In this document: positions 16,754-35,145 of the stretch, in pieces
Numbering within the stretch: position 1 is the stretch's first letter
How the letters are laid out: each line of letters starts with the position of its first letter
Virus record (IMG/VR): IMGVR_UViG_3300025914_000024
Location: 1-42,783 of that record
From: a virus
Reading direction: 5' to 3' (one strand)
DNA: 42,783 nucleotides
Notes under the pieces: generated by a model
Told to the model about the DNA's origin: nothing
Database searches by the model: none
What the model saw: only the letters and a program-made list of their open reading frames with translations
Made by a program: the position numbers and the translations under genes

Positions 16754-16765
16754 GCAGGAGACTTT

Positions 16766-17281: not shown

Positions 17282-17907
17282 GCGAGAATGTGACCGCGTT
17301 GAAGTTCGAGGACGAGCCCGAGTTCAAGGACGGCGCTGAGAAAGCGGAGGGCGTCGGCCTCGGGACCACGATGGTTTTCCAGATCGGGCGCGAGGACAAG
17401 TTCGAGCTTCAGACGATCCTCGACCGTGACGCATCGCTGGAGCAGTGGAGCGCCACGCTCGACAAGATGCGCAAGGCCGGCGAGCGCCAGAAGTGCATCA
17501 CCGCGATCCAGCAACTTGAGGCCAATCTGCGCGAGCAGGGCCGGCAGTTGGTCGATACGCGCGACGAGGCGATGCTTCTGGAGGATAACCATCAAGCAGC
17601 GACCGCGGCGCGCACGGCCCAGATTGAGCAACTGAACGCGGCGCTGAACGATTTCATCATCACCGACAAGTCGTCGTTCGACGCCAATGAGCGCAAGCGG
17701 GGCGAATACAAGCCCGGGACCTCGGCCAGCCAGCGCATCGCGGCCTTCGAGCGTGAGATCGCCAAGCTTCAGGATGACCAGAAGCAGGCCGAGATCGATC
17801 GCGAGAACGCACACAAGTCGATGAAGGCGCAGGCGATCTCCTTCAAGAAGCAGGCAGACTTCTGCATTGGCGAGATCGCGCGCTACAAGGCCGAACTCGA
17901 AGGATGA
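17278..17907 (+). CDS. Coiled-coil protein, 209 aa
   Basis: Most of residues 60-209 is predicted coiled coil by eye, with repeated Gln, Glu, Ala and Lys heptads. The first 50 residues are acidic. It could be a head or assembly protein; no family is recognised. ATG overlaps the previous stop. Confidence 0.62.
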   Translation: MSENVTALKFEDEPEFKDGAEKAEGVGLGTTMVFQIGREDKFELQTILDRDASLEQWSATLDKMRKAGERQKCITAIQQLEANLREQGRQLVDTRDEAMLLEDNHQAATAARTAQIEQLNAALNDFIITDKSSFDANERKRGEYKPGTSASQRIAAFEREIAKLQDDQKQAEIDRENAHKSMKAQAISFKKQADFCIGEIARYKAELEG

Positions 17908-17910
17908 GCC

Positions 17911-18654: not shown

Positions 18655-18703
18655 AAAACTGTTGGGTGGTATATTGTGACGGTTTCAATGTATGGAGACC
18701 ATC

Positions 18704-19267
18704 ATGCCCAGCAAGGAACAATACTGGAAGGATCCTGAGAAGCATCGTGCCGCAGCAAATCAATACCGATTGGACAATGCAGAATGGCATAAGAAATCCA
18801 ATCGTGATTGGGTGGCCCAGAAGCGCGCCGAGAACCCAGAGTTCAGAGATTCTGAAAAGGCAGCACACAAAGTCTATCGAAAAAAGAATCAGCAGGCATG
18901 TCAGGAGAGAACCAAGGCGTGGGCTCACAAGCGTCCCGGCGTCTATCTCTTTCATAATGCCAAGTCGCGATCGAGAAAATATAGCCTGCCATTTGACATC
19001 ACGATGGCTGATATCGTGATTCCGGAAGTGTGTCCTGTGTTGGGTATCCCGATCGAGGCCACAGTGCGTGGTCGGCGAGGATTTCATCCGAATTCGCCAT
19101 CGATCGATCGCATCATTCCAGAATTAGGATATGTGCGCGGCAACGTCATGGTGATCTCTAATCTTGCCAACACGCTGAAGAGGGACGAATGCAGCCCGGA
19201 CCGGTTGCGATTGGTCGCTGATTATATTGAGCGCGAGACGAGCCGTATTCGGAGCGCCTCGCTTTGA
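18704..19267 (+). CDS. Homing-type HNH endonuclease
   Basis: The 187-aa protein starts with a Lys-rich helical region and then carries the C-terminal block CPVLGIPIE, SIDRIIPELGYVRGNV and SNLANTLK, typical of free-standing phage HNH homing endonucleases. GGAG (18695-18698) precedes ATG 18704, so this start is favoured over ATG 18692. AT-richer codons and position between connector and nozzle genes argue for a mobile insertion. It probably cuts related genomes lacking the insertion. Confidence 0.75.
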   Translation: MPSKEQYWKDPEKHRAAANQYRLDNAEWHKKSNRDWVAQKRAENPEFRDSEKAAHKVYRKKNQQACQERTKAWAHKRPGVYLFHNAKSRSRKYSLPFDITMADIVIPEVCPVLGIPIEATVRGRRGFHPNSPSIDRIIPELGYVRGNVMVISNLANTLKRDECSPDRLRLVADYIERETSRIRSASL

Positions 19268-20442
19268 GCCTGAGAAATTCCAAGCCCCTCACGTGGAAGC
19301 CGAAGGGCGTTAGCGACGCGGTAGACGGCACCAACTCGTTCCCCGGGGCGATGAGCAAGCTCGCCAATCTGATCCCCGACCCGTCGACCTCCTCTATCTT
19401 CGTTCCCCGGCCCGCTGCGATCGAGCTTGAGAGCTTCGCCAGTCTGACCCAGGCGGGCCAGGTCTCCTGCATGTTCATCCTGGGGGATGTGGTCTATGGC
19501 CTGATCGGCTCCGGCATGGCGCCGGGCTACGATCAGCCATTCGCGTACGATCTGGTAACGCAGAGCCTGCTCCCGGTCGCGGGCGTGACCAATCTGAACG
19601 TGCCGCTAACTCAGCCGACCTCGGGCGACTGGACGCCGCCGATCATGGCGACGCTCTCGACCTTCATTCTGGTGACGCACCCCGGGTTCACCGGGTTTGC
19701 CAACGGTTATTTCGGTTGGTTCGACATCACGAGCCCGACTGCGCCGGTCTGGAATTCTGGCAACGTCGCGGGCAATCCGTTGATCGAGCCGCCGACCTTC
19801 GTCTCGGTCTATGGCGGTCGCGCCTATTACGCGGTGCGGAATGCAACCCCCGCCTCGGATTCCGAGGACCCGCTTTTGATCACCAACGCGAATCAGGTTC
19901 TGACCTATGGCAGCGAGACCCCGATTCTCGCCATGGCGGGGATGCCGCTGAACAATCTGTCGGGCGGCGTCGTGCAATCGCTTTTCGTGTTCAAGGATGA
20001 CGAGGGTGAAGCGCTCTTCCAGGTCACAGGGGACTATTCCGGGATTCCCGCAGCGTGGCAGATCAATAGGCTGAACGTCTCGGCGGGAACGCGGGCGCCG
20101 AACACGCTGGTGACCACGCCATATGGCCTGGCCTTCATCGATTACGATGGTCTGCGGCTGATCGATTTCTCGGGCAACGTATCGGACCCGATCGGCAATA
20201 ATGGTCAGGGTGTGACCCTGCCGTTCAAGAACGCGGTGGCGCCGTCGCGCATGGTCGCGGCCTTCAACCGGAACATCATTCGGGTGACGGTGCAGAACGG
20301 CGCCGATCCGGTGCGCGAATTTCAGGAATGGTGGTACGATTTCAATCTGAAGATTTGGACGGGTCCGCATAGCTTTCCGGTGGCCCAGATCAAGGCGTGG
20401 CGCGGGACTTTCATCGCGGCCAATCCGATCGTAAACCAATGA
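19264..20442 (+). CDS. Tail nozzle / packaged-DNA stabilisation protein
   Basis: The 392-aa protein begins with KPLTWKPKGVSDAVDGTNSF and a NLIPDPSTSSIFVPRPA segment, then repeated beta-blade-like units (VYGGRAYYAVRN, FVFKDDEGEALFQVTGDY). This matches the beta-propeller nozzle of short tails (P22 gp10 / T7 gp12 group). It would attach below the connector. The TTG start overlaps the HNH stop (TTGA), an odd arrangement for an insertion, perhaps meaning the original start context was replaced. Confidence 0.66.
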   Translation: MSLRNSKPLTWKPKGVSDAVDGTNSFPGAMSKLANLIPDPSTSSIFVPRPAAIELESFASLTQAGQVSCMFILGDVVYGLIGSGMAPGYDQPFAYDLVTQSLLPVAGVTNLNVPLTQPTSGDWTPPIMATLSTFILVTHPGFTGFANGYFGWFDITSPTAPVWNSGNVAGNPLIEPPTFVSVYGGRAYYAVRNATPASDSEDPLLITNANQVLTYGSETPILAMAGMPLNNLSGGVVQSLFVFKDDEGEALFQVTGDYSGIPAAWQINRLNVSAGTRAPNTLVTTPYGLAFIDYDGLRLIDFSGNVSDPIGNNGQGVTLPFKNAVAPSRMVAAFNRNIIRVTVQNGADPVREFQEWWYDFNLKIWTGPHSFPVAQIKAWRGTFIAANPIVNQ

Positions 20443-20452
20443 GGACCTGGAG

Positions 20453-21103
20453 ATGACGGGATTTACGGATTATTGGGCCGACAAGGTTCTGGACCAGTCG
20501 ACCGGCAAGACCTCGATCGGTGCCGCGCCGACGGTCTCGATCGCCCTGTTCACCGCCGTCGGCACCGATGCAGGTACGGGCTTCACTGAGGTTACAGGTG
20601 GGTCCTATGCGCGCGTCACGACCTCGGGCGGCAACTGGAACGCCGCGTCCAGCTCCGCGCCGTCCACGGTCTCAAATTCGGCGACGCTGACCTTTCCGAC
20701 TGCAACCGCGAGCTGGGGCACGGTGATTGCCGTAGGGGCCTACGATGCATCAACCTCCGGCAATCTGCTGTGGTGGGATTATCTCGGTAACTTCTCTTGG
20801 AAGCCCTTCACCTGCACGCTGGCATCCCCCGGCGTTCTCACGGTCCCCGCACATGGCTATTCCAACGGCGACTCAGTGGTGGTGACCAGCGAATATGGTG
20901 GAACCTTGCCGACCACAGGCGGATCGTGGTCCGGCCTCCTGACGGTCGCGGGCGTTACGACCGACACCTTCACCGCGGGGGTGAACACGACCTCGACCGG
21001 TAGCGGTGAGGTGCGCAAGGTGACCTCGCAGGCCGTGGCATCCGGCGTTCAGGTGAGTTTCACGGGCGGTAGCCCTGGCAACTTGGTCCTTACGCTCGCA
21101 TAG
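20453..21103 (+). CDS. Tail-associated structural protein, 216 aa
   Basis: The first ~115 residues read GFTDYWADKVLD, PTVSIALFTAVGTDAG, VTGGSYARVTT, and TATASWGTVIAVGAYDAS, a pattern seen in many phage structural proteins near tail-fibre genes. A Ser/Gly/Thr-rich beta domain follows. GGAG lies just upstream of ATG. It is probably a small adaptor or appendage component. Confidence 0.68.
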   Translation: MTGFTDYWADKVLDQSTGKTSIGAAPTVSIALFTAVGTDAGTGFTEVTGGSYARVTTSGGNWNAASSSAPSTVSNSATLTFPTATASWGTVIAVGAYDASTSGNLLWWDYLGNFSWKPFTCTLASPGVLTVPAHGYSNGDSVVVTSEYGGTLPTTGGSWSGLLTVAGVTTDTFTAGVNTTSTGSGEVRKVTSQAVASGVQVSFTGGSPGNLVLTLA

Positions 21104-21128
21104 GTCGGTCCGCAGGGGCGGTTAATTC

Positions 21129-22499
21129 ATGGCGACCACATGGGACCCCGCCAATAAAGACGCATCTATAACGCTGTCGGGTGGAAACCTGACAGCGGAT
21201 CAGCCGAGTCCGCCCGGCTTCCGCAGCGTTCTTGCCACGACAACCCACTCGACGCTCAAATACATGGTCAGCCAGACCATGACCAATTATGCGGCGACCG
21301 GGCCGGATACGCCGCTCGGAATTGGGTTCGGCCTTGCAACCGCCAATACTGGGTCATATTGCGGCGTTGATCTAAATTCTCTTGGATTTTATCCGGCGTC
21401 AGGTCACGTATATATCAACAATTCAGTAGTAGCCACTTATGCGCTTGGTGGTGGAAGTGGAGATATATTCGACTTATGCATAGATTTTACAAATAGCACA
21501 TTTTGGGTTCGCAGAAACGGCGGAAACTGGAACAATAACGCTTCCGCGGACCCAGCGACAAATACGCTCGGCCTGAGTATCAGCTCTCTCAATGCGGGCG
21601 CGAAGACACCGATGGCGGCTTTTAACGGAGCGCCAAGTGTTGCCACTATAACGACTAACTTTGGCGCATCATCCTTCACGTATGCCATCCCGAGCGGGTT
21701 CACGGCATGGGATCCTGGTGTAACGCCAGTTGCCGTGTCGGCGGTTGTCGGGGCACAGAGCAAATCTCTGTCGGCATTGAGCGCGGTTGGCGCCATATCG
21801 GCTCGCATCCAAGCCGCTTCAACGGAGCGCAATACCGGATCCTTCTCCGCAGCGATATCTTCGCGCGTCCAGGCATCGGCGACTGCCAAAGCCTTCAGTG
21901 CCGCGGCGGTAGCCATTGCTGCCCGCGTTGGCGCGATGGCCAAGGGCGTCTTCGCGCAGCAAAACGTGATCTCGATCTCGGCTCGGGTGACCGTCCAATC
22001 CAAGGCGATGCAGGATATTCCTGCTGTCTTTTCGGCTTCCGGCCTCTGGCGCACCGATGCTCTCCCATCGCAGACCTCGACCTATATCGAGGCCAAGGAG
22101 CCGATGACCTGGATCTACGAGACCGTGCTTCTGCCTGATAATCTCGTCATGGCAATGAACGCCATCAACGAGAGCAACATCTCTTTCGCCTTCCTGGGCG
22201 ACAGTCCGGTCGTGACCATCACTGCCAAGGACACCAACGATCAGGTAATCGATACGGTAACGGTCACGGCGCCTGGCACCACCACGCTGTGGAACGAGTT
22301 CAACTGGAATGAGGCGCCCTGGGACGGGACTGGCACGAACCTCTCACCGTGGCGCCTTCCCTGGACCGAGCCGATCGTCTTCAAGCAGATGGCGATCTCG
22401 GCCACCGGCCTTTCCGAGCCCGGCCTCAAGATCGGCAACCTCTATATGCGCTACCAGATCCTGGGATATCGCCAGCAACGACCGTCAGGGGTGCGCTGA
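21129..22499 (+). CDS. Tail fibre-like protein with SPRY-like domain and Ala-rich repeats
   Basis: Residues 1-200 look like a phage SPRY-type domain (TWDPANKDASITLSGGN, then GIGFGLATANTGSYCGVD). Residues ~200-300 hold about five tandem units of about 20 residues with the form I-S-A-R-V-x-A-x-x-K-A. The C-terminal ~155 residues (from SGLWRTDALPSQTSTY to ILGYRQQ) are closely related to the C-terminus of the next gene. Together these suggest a fibre or baseplate-like appendage with a shared attachment or tip domain. Confidence 0.68.
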   Translation: MATTWDPANKDASITLSGGNLTADQPSPPGFRSVLATTTHSTLKYMVSQTMTNYAATGPDTPLGIGFGLATANTGSYCGVDLNSLGFYPASGHVYINNSVVATYALGGGSGDIFDLCIDFTNSTFWVRRNGGNWNNNASADPATNTLGLSISSLNAGAKTPMAAFNGAPSVATITTNFGASSFTYAIPSGFTAWDPGVTPVAVSAVVGAQSKSLSALSAVGAISARIQAASTERNTGSFSAAISSRVQASATAKAFSAAAVAIAARVGAMAKGVFAQQNVISISARVTVQSKAMQDIPAVFSASGLWRTDALPSQTSTYIEAKEPMTWIYETVLLPDNLVMAMNAINESNISFAFLGDSPVVTITAKDTNDQVIDTVTVTAPGTTTLWNEFNWNEAPWDGTGTNLSPWRLPWTEPIVFKQMAISATGLSEPGLKIGNLYMRYQILGYRQQRPSGVR

Positions 22500-23998
22500 T
22501 GGCGACCTTCGGCAATCTCAATTTCGACATCGCAACGGTGATTGCGTATAGCGCGAACACGAAGTCAGCCACGCCCTATTCCGTTTCTCGCTCGGGAACT
22601 CTTCAGTACATCACGGTTAATCCTGCCGGCACAATTACGGCTGGTCGCGCCAAGCTGATGACTTATGCCGACAGTGCCAGCGCTCCAGGAGGTCTTCTAT
22701 CCACCAGCGCTGAAATCGCGTCCTTCGACAGCAATATTCAGACGGCGGCGATCGGCGGGACATTTACCGCTGGCACGTATTGGATTTCCTTCATAACCGA
22801 GGGCCATAGCGGGGCCTTCTCGGGAATGCTGGGCCATACGGCGGCAGGATCGACCGTCTTCAACGCCAATACCTATGCGCTGGGTCCGTCCGATCCGTTC
22901 GGCTCCAATGCGAGCGCATCGGCGCATAATTTCTCGGCCAATATTGTCTATACGCCCGATCTTCCCGCTGGGTCTTACCTGGGAGAAATCACCGGAGGCC
23001 CCGGCTCTTCAGCGATCGGGACCTCTCCGTTCAATTCGGACCAAGTTTGGGTCCTGAAGGTCATTCCCTCTGTTTCGGGGACGATCAGCAAGATCATCTG
23101 GTTCATGGGGAACGATTATAACGGTGGGGTTACGCCGCTTGCTCGGTTCTTGGTTTACGACAATCATACGGTTTTGGGGGTAGATCAGCCGCACAATCTG
23201 GTCGGTTCGTCGGCAGACGTGACCGTGATGTCGATCAATGAAAACTCGGTCAACCTAACATCTCCGGTTACGGTGACTGCTGGTGTTCCTGTTTATATCG
23301 GAGTTCAGTCCCGGTTAAATCTCCAGACCTTTATAACAACCTCGCAAACCGCCTTTATCGGCACAGCTTCATTTTCTGGCGGGGCTCCATCCATCTTTCC
23401 CGCAGCGACGCCGGTTTCTTATTCACCGACCTTCTGGGCTGAGTTTGCGCCCACTCCGATTCCGACTCCGATATCCGCGCGCGTGACGGCGTCGAGCGCG
23501 GCCGTGCCGTCATTGGAGCCGGTGCGCTTCAATTCGTCGGCGCTCTGGCGCACGGATGCCGTTCCATCACAGACCTCGACCTATAATGAGGGCGGCGTCG
23601 CTCTGTCCTGGATCTACGAAACGGTCCTTCTCCCGGACAATCTGATGATGATGGAAAATATGATCATCGAATCAGACCTTTCGATGGCATTTCTCGGGTC
23701 AACCCCGGTTGTGACCGTGACCGCGACCGACACCAATGAGCAAGTGCTGAGCTCGATCGGAATCGCAGGTGGAGAGGCCGATACGCTATGGAACAGTTTC
23801 ACGTGGAACAACGCCCCGTGGAACGGTACGGGCACCGATATTTCGTCCTGGGATATCCAGTGGACCGAACCCTTGGTCTTTAAGCAATTGACCGTGACCG
23901 CGACCGGCGTCAGCGCTACGGGCTTCAAAATCGGAAATCTCTATCTGAAATACCAAATTCTAGGGTATCTACAGCAATTGGATTCAGGAGTTCGGTAG
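22499..23998 (+). CDS. Tail fibre-like protein sharing a C-terminal domain with its neighbour
   Basis: The 499-aa protein has two related-looking N-terminal beta-sandwich regions (about 20-140 and 150-340) and a single I-S-A-R-V-T-A repeat unit. Its C-terminal ~155 residues (from SSALWRTDAVPSQTSTY to ILGYLQQ) are paralogous to the preceding protein. ATG overlaps the preceding stop (TGATG). This is a clear intragenome duplication of a C-terminal domain with different N-termini. Confidence 0.68.
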   Translation: MATFGNLNFDIATVIAYSANTKSATPYSVSRSGTLQYITVNPAGTITAGRAKLMTYADSASAPGGLLSTSAEIASFDSNIQTAAIGGTFTAGTYWISFITEGHSGAFSGMLGHTAAGSTVFNANTYALGPSDPFGSNASASAHNFSANIVYTPDLPAGSYLGEITGGPGSSAIGTSPFNSDQVWVLKVIPSVSGTISKIIWFMGNDYNGGVTPLARFLVYDNHTVLGVDQPHNLVGSSADVTVMSINENSVNLTSPVTVTAGVPVYIGVQSRLNLQTFITTSQTAFIGTASFSGGAPSIFPAATPVSYSPTFWAEFAPTPIPTPISARVTASSAAVPSLEPVRFNSSALWRTDAVPSQTSTYNEGGVALSWIYETVLLPDNLMMMENMIIESDLSMAFLGSTPVVTVTATDTNEQVLSSIGIAGGEADTLWNSFTWNNAPWNGTGTDISSWDIQWTEPLVFKQLTVTATGVSATGFKIGNLYLKYQILGYLQQLDSGVR

Positions 23999-24901
23999 AT
24001 GCCGGCCAGCGTCACCTATACGTTCGTTCCCGGCACGACTGCCGATGCGAACCAGGTCAACCAGAATTTCACCGATCTGGTGGACTATCTGAACGGCCTG
24101 GTGATCCCGACGACGCCGGTCTCGATCCCGAACGGCGGCACGGGCGCCAATACGGTCCAGGGCGCCCTGACCAGCCTTGGCCTTGCCCGGATCTCGATCC
24201 TGCCTTGCACCGCGTCGGCGGTCGGCACCGTGATCACCTTGACCCAGTTCTCCAATACCCCGGTGGTCTCGGCCTATAGCCTAGGCATGACGGCGGCATT
24301 CAATTCCGTTGCGGTGTCAGGGGGCGCGATCACGGTCGGGATCGGTGCGCTTGCCGCACTGTCTCTGGTCGACGAGTCCGGCGCGTCGGTGACCTCGCTG
24401 CTTTTGAACCAGTATTGCCTGATTTCTTACAATGCGTCGGGCAACAACTGGATCCTGCTGAACCCGATCCCTGCGGGCAGCGTTCAGCCCGTCCCAACGG
24501 GCGCGGTCTTCTGGTTCGGCGCCAATGCCGCGCCGTCCGGGTTCCTCGAATGCAACGGTGCTTCGGTTCTACGAAGCAGCGAACCGGGTCTATTCGCCGT
24601 GATCGGAACGACATTCGGCTCGGTCGATGGGACGCATTTCACCTTGCCTGACCTCCGCGGGCAGTTCGTCCGCGGCTGGGATGATGGGGCTGGCGTTGAT
24701 CCAGCGCGCACCTTCGGTTCCACACAGACGGACGACTTCAAGTCTCACCTTCATACGGTGACCGGAACCTTGCTTGGCGGCGCAGGCGCGGCCTCGGGCG
24801 GGCAGCTCACCGACAGCTTTCTCAGCTTTAATTCCGGCTCCACGGGCGGGACAGAGACCAGGCCCAAGAACGTTGCGCTTTTGCCCTGCATCAAGACATG
24901 A
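23999..24901 (+). CDS. Tail collar-domain fibre protein
   Basis: The N-terminus (VTYTFVPGTTADANQVNQNF) is a common phage fibre attachment type, followed by a VSIPNGGTGANTVQGAL stalk. The C-terminal part carries the phage collar domain: FGANAAPSGFLECNGA, PDLRGQFVRGWD, and the end TRPKNVALLPCIK. These domains trimerise in fibres that contact the host surface. ATG follows the preceding stop directly. Confidence 0.83.
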   Translation: MPASVTYTFVPGTTADANQVNQNFTDLVDYLNGLVIPTTPVSIPNGGTGANTVQGALTSLGLARISILPCTASAVGTVITLTQFSNTPVVSAYSLGMTAAFNSVAVSGGAITVGIGALAALSLVDESGASVTSLLLNQYCLISYNASGNNWILLNPIPAGSVQPVPTGAVFWFGANAAPSGFLECNGASVLRSSEPGLFAVIGTTFGSVDGTHFTLPDLRGQFVRGWDDGAGVDPARTFGSTQTDDFKSHLHTVTGTLLGGAGAASGGQLTDSFLSFNSGSTGGTETRPKNVALLPCIKT

Positions 24902-24927
24902 TGCTCAATCGATAAGGAGATCACACA

Positions 24928-25170
24928 ATGACCGCTCTTTCCCTCATCTCGACCCCGACCCCTGCTTCTGACCTTCAGTCGTTCCTGAACGCGCTGATCA
25001 CTTCGATCAACACGAACCTCGCGAGTTCCACCTCGATCGCTTTTGCGGCGAACGGTTCGGTGGCCACGGCCATGTCGTCGGTTGGGCCGACTGGCTCGCA
25101 CACGACCGTTCAGGAGTGGATGACCGTTTCCAATGCGAGCGGTGTGACCCGCTACGTCCCCTGTTTCTAA
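24928..25170 (+). CDS. Small virion protein candidate, 80 aa
   Basis: AAGGAG seven to ten bases before ATG 24928 is a strong ribosome site. The 80-aa product is Ser/Thr/Ala-rich (PASDLQSFLNALITSINTN). A related N-terminus (LLSSAPPSDLVGILNGIIN) opens the fibre-like gene at 31571, suggesting a shared oligomerisation segment. Function unknown. Confidence 0.6.
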   Translation: MTALSLISTPTPASDLQSFLNALITSINTNLASSTSIAFAANGSVATAMSSVGPTGSHTTVQEWMTVSNASGVTRYVPCF

Positions 25171-25641
25171 GTGAGCGACACGCCCGTCACCTTCGGCTGG
25201 GAGTCTCTCAACTCGCTGCTGAGTGACGGCGTTGCGACTCTGGTTCGGGAGCACTGGAAAGAGATAGCGCTCGACCAGGAGAAGGTGCCGCTAGCGATCG
25301 ATTGGCGGGCGATGCTGGAGGAGGAGAAGATCGGGCGGTTCCGGGTCTTCTCGGCCCGGCGCAACGGCGAGCTGATCGGGTATGTAGCCTTTAAGTCGTT
25401 CCGGCCTGAGAGATATTCGACCACGCTCTACATCAATGACGATGTGTTTTGGCTGGCTCCTGAGGAGCGGAAGGGCCTGACCGGGTACCGGATGCTCAAG
25501 GCCGCGATCGCCGCCCTGCCGCGCCCGTGCAAGCTTCAGTTCAAGGAGAAGATCGGGTTCCAGGATGGCCGGGTCGGCACCCTGTTGGAGCGTCTAGGAT
25601 TGCAGCCGGTTGAAATGTTATACAGTGCATTCCTAGAATGA
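25171..25641 (+). CDS. GNAT-fold acetyltransferase-like protein
   Basis: The 156-aa protein resembles small phage GNAT proteins: HWKEIALDQEKVPLAIDW near residues 28-45, FSARRNGELIGYVAFKSF, YINDDVFWLAPEERKGLTGYRML (broken here after the first 20 residues: the PEERKGLTGYRML stretch is the acetyl-CoA loop). Related proteins in T7-like phages are internal virion proteins, so catalytic activity is not assured. GTG starts right after the previous stop. Confidence 0.68.
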   Translation: MSDTPVTFGWESLNSLLSDGVATLVREHWKEIALDQEKVPLAIDWRAMLEEEKIGRFRVFSARRNGELIGYVAFKSFRPERYSTTLYINDDVFWLAPEERKGLTGYRMLKAAIAALPRPCKLQFKEKIGFQDGRVGTLLERLGLQPVEMLYSAFLE

Positions 25642-25653
25642 GGGGCGTGAACT

Positions 25654-26487
25654 ATGGGCGGTCCAAGCGTTCCACCGTCATATAAGCCTGCGAACACGGG
25701 TTTCGCCGATACCTCGACCACGCAGAACCTCGGGCTGCAGAATCAGGCTGCGACCACGGGCTCGAACCTCGCCAACAATGTGGTCAATAATCCCTACGCC
25801 GCGAACGTCATCCCCGGCGCACAGCAGGCGGGGCAATACCTGACCGGAACCCTCGCGCCGCAGCTTCAGAGCGACTCTTCGGCTTTATCTGGTGCGGCGG
25901 GCGCTGCGATCCCAGCGGGTTCGTCTCTGTTGCAGACCGGCTTCGACCCGCAAAACGCGCTTTATGCCCGAACCGCGCAGCAGGTGACCGATGCGCAGAA
26001 CGCGGCGTTGGCCAGGAGTGGGGTGGCCAATACGCCCTATGGTGCGGGGGTCGCAGGGCAGACGGCGGCGAACTTCAACATCGATTGGCAGAACAACCAG
26101 CTTAACCGGCAGCTTCAGGCGCTGAGCGGCTACGACTCGAACCTCGGTGCCGTCGGTCAGGCACAGGGGCGGGCGGGCGAACTCGGGCTCGCCGGTGCTG
26201 GCGCCGAAACGACCGGCTCTGCTCTGCCCTACAACACGTACAACCAGATGCAGGGTGCGGGGCTGGGGGCTCTTGGCGAGGCGTCGGGGCTGGCCGGGAA
26301 TGCCGCGCGCACGGGCCAAGGCTATCTCAATTACGACAACGCCGCGTATCAGAACCAGCTCGGCCAGTACAACGCCGAGAACCAGGGCTGGCAGGACATG
26401 TGGAGCGGCTTGGGCTCGATCCTGAGCTTTGGCTCTGGATCTGGCGGCGGTCTCGGCATGGGCGCTCTTAGCCTGTTGGGGCTCTGA
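25654..26487 (+). CDS. Internal virion / DNA-ejection protein candidate
   Basis: The 277-aa protein is Gly, Ala, Asn and Gln-rich, with long low-complexity helices (QNLGLQNQAATTGSNLANN) and a glycine-rich hydrophobic tail (SILSFGSGSGGG). Such composition and placement after tail genes match short-tail internal ejection proteins. No enzymatic motif is visible. Confidence 0.63.
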   Translation: MGGPSVPPSYKPANTGFADTSTTQNLGLQNQAATTGSNLANNVVNNPYAANVIPGAQQAGQYLTGTLAPQLQSDSSALSGAAGAAIPAGSSLLQTGFDPQNALYARTAQQVTDAQNAALARSGVANTPYGAGVAGQTAANFNIDWQNNQLNRQLQALSGYDSNLGAVGQAQGRAGELGLAGAGAETTGSALPYNTYNQMQGAGLGALGEASGLAGNAARTGQGYLNYDNAAYQNQLGQYNAENQGWQDMWSGLGSILSFGSGSGGGLGMGALSLLGL

Positions 26488-26490
26488 TCC

Positions 26491-27900
26491 ATGGCCGGGT
26501 TCGGAGGCTTCCTCGCGGGCGCTGGGCGCGCGATCCAGGGGTTTGATGCGCAGCAGCAGCAGGAGACGGAGCGCCGCCGCGCACTCCAGGCTCTCTCCAT
26601 GCAGCAGTTCCAGGATCAGCAGGCGCGACAGGCAGCGCAGGACACGACCCGCGCCAATGCCGGGCTAGTCAATCTGTACGGCCAGCCGGGTAGCGCTGTG
26701 CCTCCTCCCCAGGTTGGGGCGCTACCCGGTGCGGTGCCGGCACCCCAGCCGCAAGGTCCGCAACCTCCGATGCCGGGGCAAGCGTCCGTGCAGGCACAGC
26801 AGCGTCCGCCGATGGGTGGTGGAATGCCTGCGCCTGGAGGTGCAGCGCCGCCGCCGATGGGCGCGGGTGCTCAGGGTGCTACGGGCGGAATGGCTCCCCC
26901 GGGGCCGGGCGCGGGTGGCGCTCCACCGCAGCAGCAGCCGGGAGGACAGGCAGGGTTCAAACTCCCGCCGCCTGATCCGAATGATATCGGCGATCCGCGA
27001 ACGTTCGTGATGGCCTACAAGCGGTCGAACCCGGATGCGACGCCGGGCGAGATCATGACCGCGCTCAACCAGAGCCAGGCGATCATGAACCCGCAGAAGA
27101 AGTTTGAACTGGAGGCGACCAAGGTCCAACTCGGCGCGATGCAGAAGATGATGGATCTGCAGGAGAAGTATTACTCGACCGACAAAAAGGCCGGGACCTC
27201 GATCACGATCCAGAACATGAAAGAGGGTGCCGCCGAGAGGAAGGTAGCCGCGGGCGCGATGGACGACGACACCAAGCGGTTCATCGCCGAGCGATTGCTT
27301 GCCGGTGACACGACTGCCGCGCAGGGCCTCGGCTATGGTTCGGTCGGAGCCGCGAACCGTGCCGCAGTCATGAAGACCATGCGCGAGATTGCCGACGATC
27401 GCGGGATCGATGGCAAGGAGGCTGCGACCCGGATCGCCGAGTTCCAGGGCCTCAAGGCTGGAGAGCGTGCCTTGGGAACCCGCACGGCGACGATGGGGAT
27501 GGCGGTCAACGAAGCGAAGCGGATCGCGCCGCTTGCTCTGCAGGCGTCGGCAGCGATCGACCGAACCCGGTTCCCGACGATCAACGCGATGGAACAGGCG
27601 GTGCGCAAGGGTACGGGCGATCCGAATATCGCGCGGTTCATGACTGCGCATAACTCGCTGATCAACGTCTATGCGCGTGCGATCAGCCCGACCGGAGTCC
27701 CGACGGTCTCCGACAAGGATCATGCGCGGGAAATTCTCGATACCGCCTACTCTGAAGGCCAGTATGAGGCGTCGGTTGACCAGATGATGAAGGAGATGGC
27801 CGCGGCTCAGCAGTCTCCGGGCGACGTCAAGAAGGAGTTGCGCGGGGAGGGCGGCGGGTCGTCCGAGGGGGCCGCTAACGATCCTTTGGGGATCCGATGA
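26491..27900 (+). CDS. Internal virion / DNA-ejection protein candidate
   Basis: The 469-aa protein starts MAGFGGFLAGAGRAIQGFDA, followed by Gln-rich helices, a Pro/Gly/Ala-rich linker (about 65-155) and a long helical C-terminal domain. This build suits an ejected tunnel protein. It lies between two other internal-protein candidates and its stop abuts the next start. Confidence 0.63.
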   Translation: MAGFGGFLAGAGRAIQGFDAQQQQETERRRALQALSMQQFQDQQARQAAQDTTRANAGLVNLYGQPGSAVPPPQVGALPGAVPAPQPQGPQPPMPGQASVQAQQRPPMGGGMPAPGGAAPPPMGAGAQGATGGMAPPGPGAGGAPPQQQPGGQAGFKLPPPDPNDIGDPRTFVMAYKRSNPDATPGEIMTALNQSQAIMNPQKKFELEATKVQLGAMQKMMDLQEKYYSTDKKAGTSITIQNMKEGAAERKVAAGAMDDDTKRFIAERLLAGDTTAAQGLGYGSVGAANRAAVMKTMREIADDRGIDGKEAATRIAEFQGLKAGERALGTRTATMGMAVNEAKRIAPLALQASAAIDRTRFPTINAMEQAVRKGTGDPNIARFMTAHNSLINVYARAISPTGVPTVSDKDHAREILDTAYSEGQYEASVDQMMKEMAAAQQSPGDVKKELRGEGGGSSEGAANDPLGIR

Positions 27901-29607
27901 ATGGCCGATTCCTACGACACCCAGTTGTCGCCGCAGGAGGTGCCTGGATTCAATGCCTGGAAACAGCAGTACGCGCCGAACGATGCCGGCACCGATTACG
28001 ATCTACAAGGCGCATTCAAGGCGGGCCTGAAGCCGGACCCTCAGCGCGGCCATTTCCCGGATACGTTCAAGAAGCCGAATCATCCTACTTTCAGCACTGA
28101 AAGCCAGTACAGCAAGGGGGATACTGTCGGAGGGAAATGGGATACCCGTGATGGCAAGGACGTATTCATTCCATCTCAGTACAACCTGAAGACTACGCCA
28201 CCGGACAAACTGAAGGCGTATTTCCAGAAGGTCGAACCGGAGGCGATCTTGGATATTCAGGGACAACAAAGCGGGCTACAGGACTTCAGGTCGAAGCATC
28301 CGGAATATAACGATTTGTCGGACCAAATTCTCGCCGACAAGCTTCACGACAAGTTCTATGCGGATGTGCCGAAGGAGCAGTATTACCAGAAGCTTGGCGT
28401 TCAGGTTCAGCCTGCTGCGCCCGCGGAGCCAAAGGATCAAGGCCCTCCGATCGCGCTCGCCGATGAACCGGGCAAAGAGTACGGCGCAATCCTGCCGTTC
28501 TCCCGTGACAAGGCCACAGGGAAGACGGAGCTCGCCTTCCCGGAGATGATCCGCCAGCCGGTGCAGATCGCGTCGAAGGCCACGCAGGAGATGTTCGGCG
28601 AACGTCCGGTTGACACCAAGACGGCGCTGGAGGGCGCTGCGCTTGGCATTGGCGCCGGAGGTCCTGGGGCTACTCTGAGATCTGGTGCCCGCGAAGCTGG
28701 GGGCGCCGCTCTCACAGCCAAGCCATTGGGCGAGTCCCTAGCCGAAGTGGCGCAGCAGTTTGCCAAAAAGCCACCGGCAACCTCTGAAGACATGAAGAAA
28801 GTGGCCGGCGCTCTGTACAAGAAAGCCGAATCCGAAGGCGGATCGCTGACGCCTGAGTTCACCAATAAATTCGTGGACTCGATAAAAGACATCGCGCCTC
28901 AGACCGCGGCGGGCCGAGCGACAGAGGGTGAGAGTGAGATCACGAAGCTGATCGAGCGCTATACCCATCCAGAACAGGGCATCCGTGACAAGCCGATGAC
29001 CTTGCAGGCAGCGCAGGAGATTGACGAGGGACTCGGCAAACTGATCTCCAAAGAATACACGCCCAAGGGCCTTACCAAGGAAGGGCTGCACTTGGTCAAA
29101 GTCCAAGAGAAGCTGCGCGATATGATCGAAAACGCCAAGGCGTCGGACCTGGAGGGCGGGAAGAACGGCTTCAATGCGCTGAAGGGTGGACGGCAGGCGT
29201 GGTCGCAGGCCGCGAAGATGCGCGACATTGAGCAGATCGTCACGCGTGCGGAGCACAGTGAGCAGCCTGTGACGGCGATCAAATCCGGAATCCGCACAAT
29301 CCTTGCCAATCCGAAGCGGTTGCGCGGCTTTTCTCCAGAGGAGCAGGCGGCACTTCGCAACGCGGCTCAAACGGGCGTCGTCACCGATGTTCTGCGCATC
29401 ACCGGAAGCAAACTCGGGCCGCTTATTTCGTCGATGGCAGGCTTAGGCGAGGCCGGAATACCGGGGATGGTCGGCGCCGGGGTTCTCGGCCACGTAATCT
29501 CGGCCGGTGCGCGTAACGTTGGCGTTGGGCGCCAAATGAAGAAGGTCGGCTCGCTGATGGACGTGCTGAATAAGCCCAAGACCGACCTTGAGGCGCTGAG
29601 CCAATGA
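27901..29607 (+). CDS. Internal virion protein with YDLQGAFKAGL domain
   Basis: The 568-aa protein begins with FNAWKQQYAPND, YDLQGAFKAGLKPDPQRGHF and PDTFKKPNHPTFS, a block I recall from internal or structural proteins of many phages. A long helical central region follows, and a Gly/Ala-rich hydrophobic segment near the C-terminus (GPLISSMAGLGEAGIPG) could insert into membrane. DNA ejection is the likely role. Confidence 0.67.
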   Translation: MADSYDTQLSPQEVPGFNAWKQQYAPNDAGTDYDLQGAFKAGLKPDPQRGHFPDTFKKPNHPTFSTESQYSKGDTVGGKWDTRDGKDVFIPSQYNLKTTPPDKLKAYFQKVEPEAILDIQGQQSGLQDFRSKHPEYNDLSDQILADKLHDKFYADVPKEQYYQKLGVQVQPAAPAEPKDQGPPIALADEPGKEYGAILPFSRDKATGKTELAFPEMIRQPVQIASKATQEMFGERPVDTKTALEGAALGIGAGGPGATLRSGAREAGGAALTAKPLGESLAEVAQQFAKKPPATSEDMKKVAGALYKKAESEGGSLTPEFTNKFVDSIKDIAPQTAAGRATEGESEITKLIERYTHPEQGIRDKPMTLQAAQEIDEGLGKLISKEYTPKGLTKEGLHLVKVQEKLRDMIENAKASDLEGGKNGFNALKGGRQAWSQAAKMRDIEQIVTRAEHSEQPVTAIKSGIRTILANPKRLRGFSPEEQAALRNAAQTGVVTDVLRITGSKLGPLISSMAGLGEAGIPGMVGAGVLGHVISAGARNVGVGRQMKKVGSLMDVLNKPKTDLEALSQ

Positions 29608-29978
29608 GAATCACGATCCAATCCGTGCCGCATGAGTGGCAGCGCCACGACCAATGCGGCGATTGGATTTTCGATGAGCAGGGTACGCTCTACATCACCG
29701 TTTCGGAGCTTGGCGACGACCGGATGAACTTTCTGGTGGCGCTCCATGAGGCCGTCGAGGCGATGCTGTGTCAGCACCTCGGCATCCCGGAGACGGCGGT
29801 CTCGGCGTTTGATCAGGCGATGATCGAGAGCCCGAACGAGTACGCCGATGATCCCGGGCACGATCCGAAGGCGCCATACCACGACCCTCACGTTTTTGCC
29901 GAGATCATCGAGCGCGCGGTCGCCCAGCGACTCGGGGTGAACTGGCAGGAGTACGAGAAAAAGGTCGATGCGCTGTGA
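29604..29978 (+). CDS. Phage protein with HEAVE metal-site-like motif, 124 aa
   Basis: The protein contains VALHEAVEAML near residues 44-54 and DDPGHDPKAPYHDPH near residues 81-95, a His/Glu/Asp-rich pair of motifs that could form a metal site. From memory, similar small proteins are widespread in phages without a known role. It overlaps both neighbours by ATGA or GTGA, linking an internal protein gene to the ATP-grasp gene. Confidence 0.66.
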   Translation: MRITIQSVPHEWQRHDQCGDWIFDEQGTLYITVSELGDDRMNFLVALHEAVEAMLCQHLGIPETAVSAFDQAMIESPNEYADDPGHDPKAPYHDPHVFAEIIERAVAQRLGVNWQEYEKKVDAL

Positions 29979-31300
29979 GCCTGCGAATACTTGTCATAGA
30001 CAATATGGGCCTTGCCCTCGACTGGTGCCTCCGCTGTCAAGCCGATAATCATCGGGTGAAATGGTTCATTCGGCAAACCCCGAAGACAGACAAGATCGGT
30101 CGCGGGCTGGTCGAGATCGTGCCGTCCTGGCAGGATTGGGTGCGCTGGGCAGATCTGATCCTGGTGACGGACAACACGCGCTACCTCTACGAACTGGACG
30201 GTATCCGCCGCACCTTCCCCGAAGCGCGGATCATTGCCCCCACCCAGGCGCTCGCTGACTGGGAATTGCAGCGCACCGTCGGCATGAAGGTGCTGCAAAA
30301 ACACGGCATCGAAGTGCCTGCGTACAAAGAGTTTTCCGACTACGACTCGGCGATCTCTTACGTTCGTCGGGAGGGAAGAGCATTCGTGTCGAAACCTTGT
30401 GGAGACGAGCCAGACAAATCACTGTCGTATGTTGCTAAATCTCCTGCTGATCTGATTTTCATGCTCAATCGCTGGAAGAAGTCACAGCGCCATAAAGGCA
30501 ACTTCATACTACAGGAGAAAGTAAAGGGAGTTGAATTCGCGGTCGGAGGCTGGTTCGGGCCCGGTGGATTCAATGATGGATGGCATGAGAACTTCGAGCA
30601 TAAGAAACTCATGGCCGGCGACATGGGTCCGAACACAGGAGAGGCCGGCACGGTTATGCGGGTCATCAAGAAGTCTAAGCTTGCCGATCAAGTCTTGGTG
30701 CCGCTAACCGAGACGTTGGAGAAGCTTGGATATGTCGGCTATATCGACGTGAATTGCATTATCGATGAGGACGGAAAGGCATGGCCCCTTGAGTTTACAT
30801 CAAGATTCGGCTGGCCCATGTTCAATCTCCAGCAGGCTCTACATGAAGGGGATCACGCCGAATGGCTGGTAAACCTCGCCGACGGGCGCGACTCGCACAA
30901 TTGGAGGCTGAACGAAGTGGCGACATGCGTAGTGGCCGCGACCGGGGACTACCCGTTCAGCCATATAACGAAGAAGGAGGTCACCGGGATTCCGATCTAC
31001 GGGCTGAAGGAATCGATACTCCCGAATATCCACCCGTGCGAGATCATGCAGGGGGAGGCTCCCCACGATGTGAATGGGAAGGTGGTGACGCTCCCGTGCT
31101 GGGTGACGGCGGGGGATTACGTCCTGGTGGCGAGCGGAACGGGGGAAACGGTCACGCAGTCGCGGCAGAAGGTTTACCGAGTGCTGGACTCGATCAGCAT
31201 GCCCAACAGCCCGTTCTGGAGAAACGATATCTCACGCCGCCTGTCGAAAGAGTTGCCCCTGCTCCAAGCACAGGGATACGCATCGGGGATGAGGTATTAG
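29975..31300 (+). CDS. PurD-like ATP-grasp ligase
   Basis: The 441-aa protein matches the glycinamide-ribotide synthetase (PurD) branch of ATP-grasp enzymes: an N-terminal Rossmann-type segment (SLRILVIDNMGLALDW), a Lys-Pro ATP site near 140-149, LQEKVKGVEFAVGGWF near 179-194, HKKLMAGDMGPNTGEAGT at 209-226, and DVNCII...PLEFTSRFGWP near 258-281, plus a PurD-like C-terminal lobe starting ATCVVAATGDYPF. These enzymes join a carboxylate to an amine using ATP. The normal GGMG of PurD is GEAG here, so the substrate may differ. It sits in the virion block rather than in a nucleotide module. Confidence 0.78.
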   Translation: MSLRILVIDNMGLALDWCLRCQADNHRVKWFIRQTPKTDKIGRGLVEIVPSWQDWVRWADLILVTDNTRYLYELDGIRRTFPEARIIAPTQALADWELQRTVGMKVLQKHGIEVPAYKEFSDYDSAISYVRREGRAFVSKPCGDEPDKSLSYVAKSPADLIFMLNRWKKSQRHKGNFILQEKVKGVEFAVGGWFGPGGFNDGWHENFEHKKLMAGDMGPNTGEAGTVMRVIKKSKLADQVLVPLTETLEKLGYVGYIDVNCIIDEDGKAWPLEFTSRFGWPMFNLQQALHEGDHAEWLVNLADGRDSHNWRLNEVATCVVAATGDYPFSHITKKEVTGIPIYGLKESILPNIHPCEIMQGEAPHDVNGKVVTLPCWVTAGDYVLVASGTGETVTQSRQKVYRVLDSISMPNSPFWRNDISRRLSKELPLLQAQGYASGMRY

Positions 31301-31570: not shown

Positions 31571-32278
31571 ATGACCATTGCCCTCCTCTCCTCGGCGCCG
31601 CCGTCCGATCTCGTCGGCATCCTCAACGGGATCATCAATCAGATCAACGCTGGGGCGGCTGCGGTAACGCCTGGCGGGACCAATGGCCAGATCCAGTACA
31701 ACAACGCGGGCGCGCTCGGCGGGGTATCAGGAGCGACGAGCAATGGCACGACGCTGACATTGACCACGCCGGTTATCAACGGAGCCCCGACGGGGACAGG
31801 CGTCGGTTCTGGCGCCACGGTGAGCACATTGGTCCTGAGAGATGGCGCAGCCAATGCTCGAGCCAATAATTTCATCTACTCCGCAACGAGCACTGTTTCC
31901 GCTAGCGGGACGACGATTCTCACCGTTGCGAGTACCAGGGTTCAGATCCTGACCGGCACGCAGACTCAAACATTCCAGCTTCCATCTGCGCTGAGTCTGA
32001 CGGCTCAAACGCAATTCTCCTTCAATAACAATAGCACCGGGAATCTTTCCGTTGTTGATGCAGGATCGAATGCGATCTGTACTGTCGTTCCTGGAGGCTA
32101 TGTCAATGTGATCGTCACCAACACTGGATCGGCGAATGGGGTATGGGATAATCACTCCCTAGCGCCAGCGGGAGTTAATTGGGGCACGACCATATTGGCT
32201 CCGAATCTACCAACCTCTTCATCTGGGCTCCCCACGGGGGCTCTTTGGAACAATTCCGGTGTTGTAAGCGTAGCGTGA
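31571..32278 (+). CDS. Fibre-like protein, 235 aa
   Basis: The protein starts LLSSAPPSDLVGILNGIIN, then GTNGQIQYNNAGALGGVSGA, a stalk sequence common in phage fibres, followed by strand-rich Ser/Thr/Asn repeats. It probably forms a trimeric fibre segment. AAAGGA upstream of ATG is a good ribosome site. Confidence 0.68.
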   Translation: MTIALLSSAPPSDLVGILNGIINQINAGAAAVTPGGTNGQIQYNNAGALGGVSGATSNGTTLTLTTPVINGAPTGTGVGSGATVSTLVLRDGAANARANNFIYSATSTVSASGTTILTVASTRVQILTGTQTQTFQLPSALSLTAQTQFSFNNNSTGNLSVVDAGSNAICTVVPGGYVNVIVTNTGSANGVWDNHSLAPAGVNWGTTILAPNLPTSSSGLPTGALWNNSGVVSVA

Positions 32279-32304
32279 CGCTCTTCCAAAAAGGATAAAA
32301 CTAA

Positions 32305-32670
32305 ATGGCGACACCGACCACGATTAGCGGGACGCGACCCCAGGTTAGAACCGCAGTAACCGTCTCGCTCCAGGATGTCCCCGTGATCGCGCTCGACTGG
32401 GCGAACGGCCAGGTGGTGGCCATAGCGGGCACCTCCGCGGCATCGGCGATCTTTGACGCGACCAACGACCGGATCGTCGAGGCATGCTCCAGCACGGATT
32501 GCTGGATCACGATTGCGGCGTCACCCACGGCGGCGGTGGCTGCAGGCAGCACGTTCCTGGCTGCGGGTTCGCTGCGGTACATCTACGTTCCGGCCAACGG
32601 CAAGGTTGCGGCGATCCAGAGCACGGCGGCGGGTTCGATCGCTCTGATCCCGGCGCTGATCGCGACATGA
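32305..32670 (+). CDS. Small structural protein candidate, 121 aa
   Basis: An AAAAAGGAT site precedes ATG 32305. The protein is Ala/Ile/Val-rich beta-type with one C-S-S-T-D-C cysteine pair near residues 52-57. It lies between fibre genes and overlaps the next start by ATGA. It may be a fibre chaperone or tip adaptor. Confidence 0.6.
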   Translation: MATPTTISGTRPQVRTAVTVSLQDVPVIALDWANGQVVAIAGTSAASAIFDATNDRIVEACSSTDCWITIAASPTAAVAAGSTFLAAGSLRYIYVPANGKVAAIQSTAAGSIALIPALIAT

Positions 32671-34358
32671 TCCCTTATCCCGGGAGTCTTCTGAGCGACT
32701 CTCCGGTACGGCCCGTCAGTCCGCCGCCGCCACCTCCCCCGCCATTTGCGCCCAGCGATGTGGCGAACCTGAAGCTTTGGCTTTCGGCTGACTCGGGTAC
32801 CTTCAAGGATGCCGGGGTCACGCCTTGCGCGAATGGTGACACCGTTCAGCAGTGGAACGACCAGTCCGGGAACGCGAACAACGCATCGCAATCATCTTCC
32901 GGGAACCGCCCAGGCTTCAACACCAATATCCAGAACAGCCTTCCGGCAGTGACCTTCGTCTCGGCGTCCAATGAATACATGCAACATGGCTATACCGGAG
33001 AACTCGGAACAGTTTTCGCCGTGTATGCCAATACTGACGCAACCACGGGCGGCGCGTTGTTCTCTGGCGACACGTCCGATGCGGTGGCTGATGCTGCGTA
33101 TTACTGCATCCCGCGCGTTGATATAACGACGGGTCTCCGCAGCAAGTTCTATGGTCGGATCACCACGGCGGATTCCGGTGGCGCTGCGACCTGGAACGGT
33201 CAGGCCGGCGCTCTGACTGGCGTGGTCGACCTGATGGCGATCCGGAACACCGGGTCCGTTCTGACCATGTACGAATATGACTCACTGACCTCGACCGCGA
33301 ACATCCCGGGCGGCGAGACGGTGCGCCCGATCAATTCCGGGTTCATCGGCATGGCGCCCTATAACCGGAACCCGGGGTCGTACTTCCAGGGCCAGATCCT
33401 GGAGTACATAATCTACAACCCGAACATCTCGGATGTGAACTTCGGAAAAGTCATTACCTATCTGAAATCCAAATGGAACATCGGAGCCAGCGGCACCTAC
33501 AAAATGGCTGCGTTCAAGGGCCAGAATAACGACGATTTCTTGTACTCGTTCCGCTCGACCGACGGGGTGGATTTCACCTTCTCGCCAACCAGCTACATTC
33601 CGCCCGCGACCCATCTCTGCCGTGATTTCGGGTTTTTCTTCCTGTTCAGCAAGTACTGGATCACGCACGCGATCATGGATGCGGGCGCTCCGTCCGGCTA
33701 TCTCACGCACGGACATGAATTCGACGTGGCGTCATCGACCGACGGTGAAAACTGGACCTTTATCACCTCGGTCGACATTACCGCCGCGACCGGCGCCAGC
33801 AATGGCGGCGCCTGGACCTTCCAGCCGATCCGCAACCTGGACGGCACGCCCTGGCTGGACGGCGGGGGGCTTCCCCACTTCATGTTCGGTGCCTCGAGCG
33901 ACAATCAAGTGACGGCCAGCTTGTGGGAAATCCATCCGCTCGACTCGACGCTGACCACTTGGTCGACCCCGGTTCAGATCACGGGAACGAGCCTTCCTGC
34001 AGTCACATACGATCCGTATTGCCTCTACGACGGAACCACATTCTCGATCTGGTACAGCAACGCGGTCAGCCCGAATCACTATATCGAGATGATGAATAGC
34101 ACCTCGATGACATCGGGTTACGTGGTCCGGAAGTCCGGTGACTTCGCTGGCTGGGGGAATATCTATGAGCATCCGTGCCTGATCCGGAACTCAGACCTGA
34201 CCTGGCGCATGTACGTTGACGCGCTGGGGGCCGAATCTTCCTACGCGACCGGCAGCGCGGACTGGGCAACGTGGTCTGGGCTTACGCTTCTGACCGATGC
34301 AGGAAAAGCACAGTCTGCCAGCTTCCGGTTCCAGGGAACCGAGGTCTTCACCGCATGA
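32667..34358 (+). CDS. Receptor-binding/depolymerase candidate (LamG-like plus beta-propeller-like)
   Basis: ATG 32667 overlaps the previous stop; earlier in-frame ATG would overlap the previous gene by nearly 190 bases. After a proline run (residues 15-25), residues ~30-275 look like a concanavalin/LamG-type lectin domain (LKLWLSADSGTF, VQQWNDQSGNANNASQS, LEYIIYNPNISD). The remaining ~285 residues have repeated blade-like motifs such as FSIWYSNA and WRMYVDA, like a five-bladed glycosidase-type propeller. Glycan binding or cleavage at the host surface is inferred. Confidence 0.66.
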   Translation: MIPYPGSLLSDSPVRPVSPPPPPPPPFAPSDVANLKLWLSADSGTFKDAGVTPCANGDTVQQWNDQSGNANNASQSSSGNRPGFNTNIQNSLPAVTFVSASNEYMQHGYTGELGTVFAVYANTDATTGGALFSGDTSDAVADAAYYCIPRVDITTGLRSKFYGRITTADSGGAATWNGQAGALTGVVDLMAIRNTGSVLTMYEYDSLTSTANIPGGETVRPINSGFIGMAPYNRNPGSYFQGQILEYIIYNPNISDVNFGKVITYLKSKWNIGASGTYKMAAFKGQNNDDFLYSFRSTDGVDFTFSPTSYIPPATHLCRDFGFFFLFSKYWITHAIMDAGAPSGYLTHGHEFDVASSTDGENWTFITSVDITAATGASNGGAWTFQPIRNLDGTPWLDGGGLPHFMFGASSDNQVTASLWEIHPLDSTLTTWSTPVQITGTSLPAVTYDPYCLYDGTTFSIWYSNAVSPNHYIEMMNSTSMTSGYVVRKSGDFAGWGNIYEHPCLIRNSDLTWRMYVDALGAESSYATGSADWATWSGLTLLTDAGKAQSASFRFQGTEVFTA

Positions 34359-34382: not shown

Positions 34383-34751
34383 ATGGATGAGCATGGCACC
34401 TTCACTGCATCGTTTGTTCTCGAACTGATCATCGGCCTGTCCAGCCTGGGCGGGTCACTGTTCGCAACGATTCGGTATCTTTTGGGCCAGATCGAGAACG
34501 CCAAAAAGGAGGCGATGCTCTACGCGCGCGAGGAATGCGATGCGGTCTCAGTCAAAACCGGGACACTTGAGCGCGAGGTCGAATCCACCCATACCCAGCT
34601 TGGCGCATTCAACCTGGAGTATCTGCGCGGGCTTCGGGAGCAGGACACGCGGTATCAGTCGCGCGCCGATGCCGAGAGATTTGAGGCCAGAATTATGGTA
34701 ATGCTCGACAAAATGTCGGTGAAAATTGATCTCTTGCTCAACCGTGAGTGA
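34383..34751 (+). CDS. Membrane-anchored coiled-coil protein, 122 aa
   Basis: A short N-terminal stretch precedes a hydrophobic segment (FVLELIIGLSSLGGSLFATI, about residues 10-29), then a long charged coiled coil (residues 35-120). This resembles phage membrane-tethered helical proteins near lysis or tail genes. Its TGA is followed in the same frame, after two codons, by the receiver-domain gene. A membrane anchor with a coiled-coil could dimerise the partner. Function is otherwise unknown. Confidence 0.67.
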   Translation: MDEHGTFTASFVLELIIGLSSLGGSLFATIRYLLGQIENAKKEAMLYAREECDAVSVKTGTLEREVESTHTQLGAFNLEYLRGLREQDTRYQSRADAERFEARIMVMLDKMSVKIDLLLNRE

Positions 34752-34757
34752 CGCCGC

Positions 34758-35114
34758 TTGATCCTGGTCGTCGAAGACAATCTCCTGGAGCGACAACTTT
34801 TGATCGATATCCTTAAGGAGTTCGGTCAGGCCGCTGTATTTGCCACAAGCCGGGAAGAGGCGATCTCCGCCATGTCAGCCCGCAAACTGGACGGAATGAT
34901 CGTCGACCTGAAACTCGTGGGGACCAACGGAACCACCCTGATCGCGGCGATCAGGGGGAGCGGCAGCACCATTCCCATCCTCGTGCTAAGCGGTCAGCCA
35001 GACCCCGAAATGCTGTCCAACGCCGTGCTGATCGGAGCGGACGCGGTAATGCTGAAGCCGTTCCGGATCGCCGATCTGGAGAGGATGTTTGAGTCTCTCG
35101 GCTGGAAGAAATAG
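34758..35114 (+). CDS. Stand-alone response-regulator receiver domain
   Basis: The 118-aa protein is a complete CheY-like receiver: acidic pocket Glu6-Asp7, phospho-acceptor Asp50 in IVDLKL, Ser78 in LVLSGQ, and Lys100 in LKPF. All canonical catalytic residues are present, so phosphotransfer is possible. There is no output domain and no histidine kinase in the window, so it would intercept a host kinase or act as a structural decoy. TTG 34758 is the only start; it is six bases after the upstream TGA in the same frame, with no clear ribosome site, implying termination-reinitiation or readthrough. It is the last gene of the late operon. Confidence 0.85.
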   Translation: MILVVEDNLLERQLLIDILKEFGQAAVFATSREEAISAMSARKLDGMIVDLKLVGTNGTTLIAAIRGSGSTIPILVLSGQPDPEMLSNAVLIGADAVMLKPFRIADLERMFESLGWKK

Positions 35115-35145
35115 GGCGCCAGTCTCCCGGCGCCCTTTCTTCTTA
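35113..35145. terminator. Bidirectional rho-independent terminator
   Basis: AGGGCGCC (35113-35120) pairs perfectly with GGCGCCCT (35129-35136) around an 8-base loop, followed by a T-rich run (TTTCTTCTT). On the minus strand a TATTTCTTCC run follows the same stem. It ends the long late operon and the convergent leftward operon that starts at 36753. Confidence 0.82.

Follow-up and report, generated by a model that had tools for sequence, protein, structure and literature searches.

A stand-alone receiver domain closing the late operon of a phage and its possible interference with host histidine kinases

Why would a tailed phage close its late operon with a complete receiver domain, directly behind the gene of a small membrane protein, and what could such a product do in an infected cell? 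The question is raised by a stretch of 42,783 bases, here called the window, which is the entire IMG/VR virus record IMGVR_UViG_3300025914_000024. This metagenome contig is linear, has no end repeats and may be incomplete.

The receiver and its setting in the phage genome

The record is a soil-type bacterial virus and, judged by its genes, a tailed phage. It contains a phrog_38 large terminase, a portal-like gene and a phrog_1357 major head protein, together with a Gp80-type fibre (PF23140), a tail collar fibre and the recombination genes YqaJ and Erf. Viral contigs yielded at least 83 relatives of the major head protein, the 80 retained being 54-80% identical, and the structural genes are common to about 80 uncultured contigs. 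Host assignment via prophages gave only five loci, in metagenome bins of conflicting phyla, and was abandoned.

Gene-by-gene comparison with 20 relatives showed that the late module on the plus strand (9091..31300), from the terminase at 9091 through the portal-like gene at 11751, the major head gene at 14803 and the neck and tail genes to an ATP-grasp gene at 29975-31300, is common to the group. The ATP-grasp gene, which is GARS-like, is present in 13 of these 20 genomes. A low-GC (0.52) endonuclease VII-like gene is inserted in the late operon at 18692-19267. Past about 31.5 kb the genes of the window are private with respect to the 20 relatives, with the exception of the gene at 32305-32670, which has a counterpart of 61% identity in one of them (G002). 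Most inspected relatives switch strand directly past the ATP-grasp gene and one small gene; the window instead has an accessory block of fibre-like, propeller/LamG-like, membrane/coiled-coil and receiver genes. The fibre-like and propeller/LamG-like virion genes of the plus strand (31571..34358, made up of 31571-32278, 32305-32670 and about 32667-34358) form, with the two genes behind them, an accessory insert that closes the late operon. To the right of the operon lies a serine resolvase/invertase gene (38406-39029; PF00239, 4e-42) that has no match in the 20 compared relatives.

The receiver gene (34758..35114, plus strand) starts with TTG, stops with TAG and encodes 118 amino acids. Residues 2-110 align with positions 1-109 of the 111 in the Pfam Response_reg profile PF00072 (66.3 bits, cut-off 30.2; E 3.3e-18), which indicates a full receiver fold by sequence profile; the protein also matches PHROG 731 (E 1.2e-19, profile positions 4-112 of 227) and PHROG 5982 (E 2.3e-17, positions 871-982 of 1030). 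All five catalytic residues are intact in the sequence and in the alignments: the DD pair Glu6/Asp7, the phospho-acceptor Asp50, Ser78 and Lys100. The complete CheY-like receiver that had been proposed from the letters of the sequence was thus confirmed at these same residues. Pseudo-receivers are defined by the loss of at least one of the five (PMC12632262), and with five of five present this identity was ruled out. The variable positions are K52 at D+2, G79 at T+1, Q80 at T+2 and V97 at K-3. There is no output domain, as the protein ends 16 residues past the KPF motif and gives no other Pfam domain above cut-off. By profile, catalytic residues and missing output domain, the gene is a single-domain response regulator. 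Its closest solved structures are RssB/Hnr, Spo0F and CheY (PDB, 2.7e-10 or weaker), and AlphaFold models made without an alignment are of low confidence, with a pLDDT of 47 for the receiver and 44 for a read-through fusion with the upstream protein.

Among 398 sampled Pseudomonadota genomes the best matches are 28-37% identical, and plasmid proteins reach at most about 38% among the matches listed; no recent donor is visible. Descent from hybrid-kinase receivers was also considered and dropped, the nearest matches being a mixture of kinase, NtrC-like and OmpR-like proteins.

A bidirectional intrinsic terminator (35113..35136, stem of 8-10 pairs) overlaps the stop codon of the receiver. Its folding energies are -23.3 kcal/mol on the plus and -26.7 kcal/mol on the minus strand (z -5.2 and -5.3), and it would stop the late operon on one side and the convergent minus-strand genes on the other. 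Because this strong terminator abuts the stop codon, the receiver is read as the final gene of the late transcript, and its GC content (0.58) and GC3 (0.76) are in line with those of the remaining late genes; the late-operon membership assigned at first reading is supported by both observations. Beyond the terminator, the minus strand carries a small lipoprotein-like gene with an SGCS lipobox (36475-36753).

A possible role in host kinase interference and its recurrence in other phages

The reading we favour, at a probability of roughly 45%, is that the last cistron of the late operon would yield a separate, soluble receiver, translated by termination-reinitiation at the TTG, 6 nt past the stop of the upstream gene. 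Its docking partner in the host would be a histidine kinase or an HPt protein, on which it would act as a decoy, a phosphate sink or an allosteric inhibitor; a host envelope/stress or defence-linked response would then be blunted in late infection, to the benefit of the phage. Kinase interference is the likeliest function of the receiver. Neither a histidine kinase HATPase domain (PF02518) nor an Hpt domain (PF01627) occurs in the 42.8-kb, possibly incomplete record, and the partner would therefore come from the host, or the receiver would act without phosphorylation. A receiver without an output domain can occupy or drain a kinase or an HPt protein, or bind another protein; docking on a host kinase or HPt protein is likely because the record has no gene for either and the receiver has no output domain. 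The protein may be phosphorylated in the cell. The signalling interference suggested by the sequence-only reading is made plausible by the intact chemistry and the late-operon position; a target kinase and an effect on the cell are what we infer beyond these.

Residues at the variable positions bear on the mode of action. Hydrophilic residues at D+2 and T+2 have been predicted to favour dephosphorylation, and an aliphatic residue at K-3 is rare in bacteria (PMC8510515). In the window receiver, K52 and Q80 together with V97 give weak evidence for a sink or decoy over a signal-transmitting switch. Spo0F has a lysine at D+2 and yet keeps its phosphate for long, so the sink prediction is a weak one, and K52/Q80 were rejected as proof of a sink. 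The TTG start and weak ribosome site further imply that expression may be low, which would be unfavourable for a titration mechanism.

The distribution of such genes was surveyed at several levels. PF00072 was found in none of 43 related records (30 relatives and 13 reached via the ATP-grasp and 32305 genes), a set in which many records are fragments and 21 related ones measure at least 40 kb. No close homologue of the receiver or of the upstream protein was confirmed in IMG/VR, and a homologue of the gene pair, the search for which had been recommended at first reading, was not found among viral contigs, annotated phages or relatives. No orthologue of the receiver is present in these collections. 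Receivers do occur in 28 annotated phage records, each below 40% identity to that of the window; three of these records (H8, H11 and H28) were inspected, and H11 and H28 are unannotated. Genes for CcmF, HtrA and a two-component pair make H8 (also L146; MW462191.1), 103 kb long and labelled as a bacteriophage, look like bacterial DNA.

A scan of viral contigs with a receiver alignment confirmed 157 loci, of which 80 were listed. Most of the listed loci are full two-domain regulators, many of them stopping exactly at the contig edge, and these edge-located genes are probably host genes at provirus borders. In many IMG/VR provirus records (L182-L213) the end of the record coincides with the stop codon of an OmpR-type regulator gene, which is probably a retained host gene. 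Two groups among the listed loci, in contrast to these, are stand-alone receivers within phage late genes. The first comprises L176:2559-3071, L181:3989-4504 and L196:3989-4504, from a siphovirus-like group unrelated to the window phage. These receivers of 170-171 amino acids, with a C-terminal helical extension, are flanked by a major tail protein (phrog_117, E 5.3e-10) on one side and, on the other, by genes that resemble head-tail joining genes in position and length but lack a family match. Their catalytic residues are intact and the dN/dS values of the receiver parts are 0.22, 0.11 and 0.12 for the three pairs; by these ratios, the receivers are under purifying selection. A HATPase domain occurs close to the contig end in one of the three records (G443). 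The second, L243:3974-5134, is a 137-aa stand-alone receiver 0.2 kb ahead of a GH108 endolysin (phrog_315, PF05838), for which a search returned only its own contig. This contig of 22 kb also has a glycosyltransferase gene. A further short receiver, L254, was left out of the recurrence, as it adjoins a histidine kinase on a contig with bacterial-type genes.

The window receiver is about 30-33% identical to those of both groups, and the late-region receivers therefore look independent, not one family by descent; valine at K-3 is common to the window receiver and L181/L176. The first impression that receivers are unusual in late operons holds (0 of 43 records of the group and allied contigs, and a full two-domain regulator in nearly every other hit among viral contigs), but the gene is not unique in this respect, given the two groups described.

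The same distribution bears on the possibility that the receiver is a moron, a host-derived gene without phage function, carried transiently at the operon end and heading for loss. Its presence in the window phage only (0 of 43 other records) and its position in a variable accessory region would fit such cargo. The fully intact catalytic site and frame and the phage-like composition do not; moreover, the best matches of just 28-37% show no recent capture, an old useless gene should decay, and purifying selection acts on receivers in another phage lineage. We consider transient cargo unlikely.

The membrane protein and the junction with the receiver

The gene directly upstream (34383..34751, plus strand) starts with ATG and encodes 122 amino acids, with a single N-terminal hydrophobic helix (about residues 10-33) and a charged coiled coil behind it. 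The acidic N-terminus and the basic residues past the helix suggest an N-out/C-in topology. The protein matches PHROG 462, labelled as a lipoprotein, only weakly (E 4.5e-7) and has no match in Pfam or NCBIfam; no homologue was found in the annotated-phage collection or in 30 relatives, and phrog_462 was found in none of the 21 relatives tested. Both open reading frames noted at first reading, the transmembrane/coiled-coil frame and the receiver in frame six bases past its TGA, were recovered.

At the junction (34749..34760, plus strand; TGACGCCGCTTG), the TGA of the membrane protein (34749-34751) is followed by the 6 nt CGCCGC and the TTG of the receiver. No other ATG, GTG or TTG lies between the TGA and the receiver domain, so the TTG is indeed the only start, as first read. 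The claim that it has no clear ribosome site stands in part: its Shine-Dalgarno is weak (anti-SD -2.3/-4.3 kcal/mol), but this is not unusual, as scores of +1.2 and -1.7 for the tightly packed late genes at 25171 and 32667 show. The phage has a second case of this arrangement in its conserved structural-module gene (19264..20442, plus strand), whose TTG start overlaps the TGA of the inserted endonuclease VII gene and where most alignable relatives carry ATG or GTG at that codon or adjacent to it; TTG starts set against a TGA are therefore in use in this phage. Termination-reinitiation works over short distances only and is nearly abolished at about 20 nt, and the products of translationally coupled genes are often subunits of a single complex (PMC10666635). 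The 6-nt gap is compatible with termination-reinitiation, which is a simpler reading than readthrough, and we infer coupled translation.

Coupled translation could also supply the membrane protein and the receiver at matching levels for a complex in the membrane, where the phosphorylation state of the receiver would gate phage lysis or exit. The two genes are adjacent and probably coupled, which would fit subunits of one complex (PMC10666635), and the receiver of L243 adjoins an endolysin. In one relative (L160:775-2970) the late operon closes with an endolysin-like gene, a holin-like gene and an 87-aa membrane/coiled-coil protein, the first two named by appearance and not by family match, and further relatives have small proteins of this kind. 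The L160 endolysin-like gene has a C-terminal transmembrane/coiled-coil part. A lysis role for the window protein is thus suggested by architecture and position alone. However, none of the genes near the pair in the window was recognised as a lysis gene, the membrane protein has no sequence similarity to the 87-aa protein of L160, those of other group members sit at different sites and without a receiver, and the L176/L181/L196 receivers lie among neck and tail genes, not lysis genes. Gating of lysis appears distinctly unlikely.

A broader combination would have late stand-alone receivers as a recurrent, selected phage strategy, with the window receiver held close to host kinases at the membrane by its neighbour, in a complex or by occasional readthrough, and draining or reading kinase phosphoryl flux. 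If true, receivers made late, with the virion or lysis genes, would silence envelope-stress or defence responses or time phage exit. As a whole, this combination is improbable.

Readthrough of the TGA, which the sequence-only reading had put forward, would give a minor membrane-tethered fusion of 243 residues as the functional form. In bacteria a UGA stop is leaky when the next base is C, as it is here; the two frames are the same and only 6 nt apart, the first beta strand of the receiver starts directly behind the linker, and the N-out/C-in topology would place a fused receiver in the cytoplasm. The shared frame, however, is no signal in itself, since 9 of 22 adjacent late-gene pairs are in the same frame and about one third is expected by chance. 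The RNA around the stop shows no conspicuous fold (z +0.5), the TTG start already yields a complete receiver domain, a coupled TTG start has its precedent at 19264, and no fused homologue was found in IMG/VR. With a gap that fits reinitiation, readthrough is unlikely, and a functional fusion is very improbable.

An assembly or binning artefact joining host DNA to a phage contig, which a linear metagenome contig without end repeats might allow, has almost no probability, given a receiver placed between a virion gene and a terminator common to convergent genes, its operon spacing and late-gene composition, and flanks without host-like genes.

Comparison with known receivers and phage regulators

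The window receiver resembles single-domain regulators of the CheY/Spo0F type in its complete DD/D/T(S)/K site, its length of about 118 amino acids and its lack of an output domain. It differs from them in its location in a phage late operon, with no partner kinase in the record, in the aliphatic V97 at K-3 in place of an aromatic switch residue, and in its identity of only about 28-38% to anything sampled. PHROG 731 and PHROG 5982, both matched by the window receiver, are phage families containing receivers; their profiles are longer than a single receiver and have no assigned function, and the window protein corresponds to the receiver part only.

Jumbo-phage cREC is likewise a receiver-like domain in phage genomes, but it is divergent, is associated with NAD+/ADPr enzymes and has been described as absent from all two-component systems (PMC7824862); no NAD+/ADPr-processing gene was found among the genes adjacent to the window receiver on either side, and the association typical of cREC is thus absent here.

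A functional parallel is offered by Osp of Rhodobacter sphaeroides, a single-domain response regulator-like protein that is a direct inhibitor of the kinase CckA; it has neither the acidic pair nor the lysine and acts without being phosphorylated (PMC9430884). Both proteins are stand-alone receiver folds, and the kinase inhibition proposed for the window receiver has been demonstrated for Osp; unlike Osp, the window receiver has all five residues, and Osp is therefore a partial analogue only. In Pseudomonas phage LSL4, the protein PIT4 likewise acts on two-component systems of the host, several of whose histidine kinases it binds (PMC10714779), but it is encoded by an early gene and is not described as a receiver. 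Terrestrial phages carry phoR/phoB auxiliary genes (PMC10987575), which, in contrast to the lone late-operon receiver of the window, encode a kinase and a full DNA-binding regulator.

So far, only scattered cases are known in which phages control the two-component systems of their hosts. The intact late receiver described here and the unrelated phage cases, among them one lineage under purifying selection, suggest a borrowing of the receiver domain by phages as a tool, and make it a testable question whether host kinase signalling is drained or read by phages late in infection.
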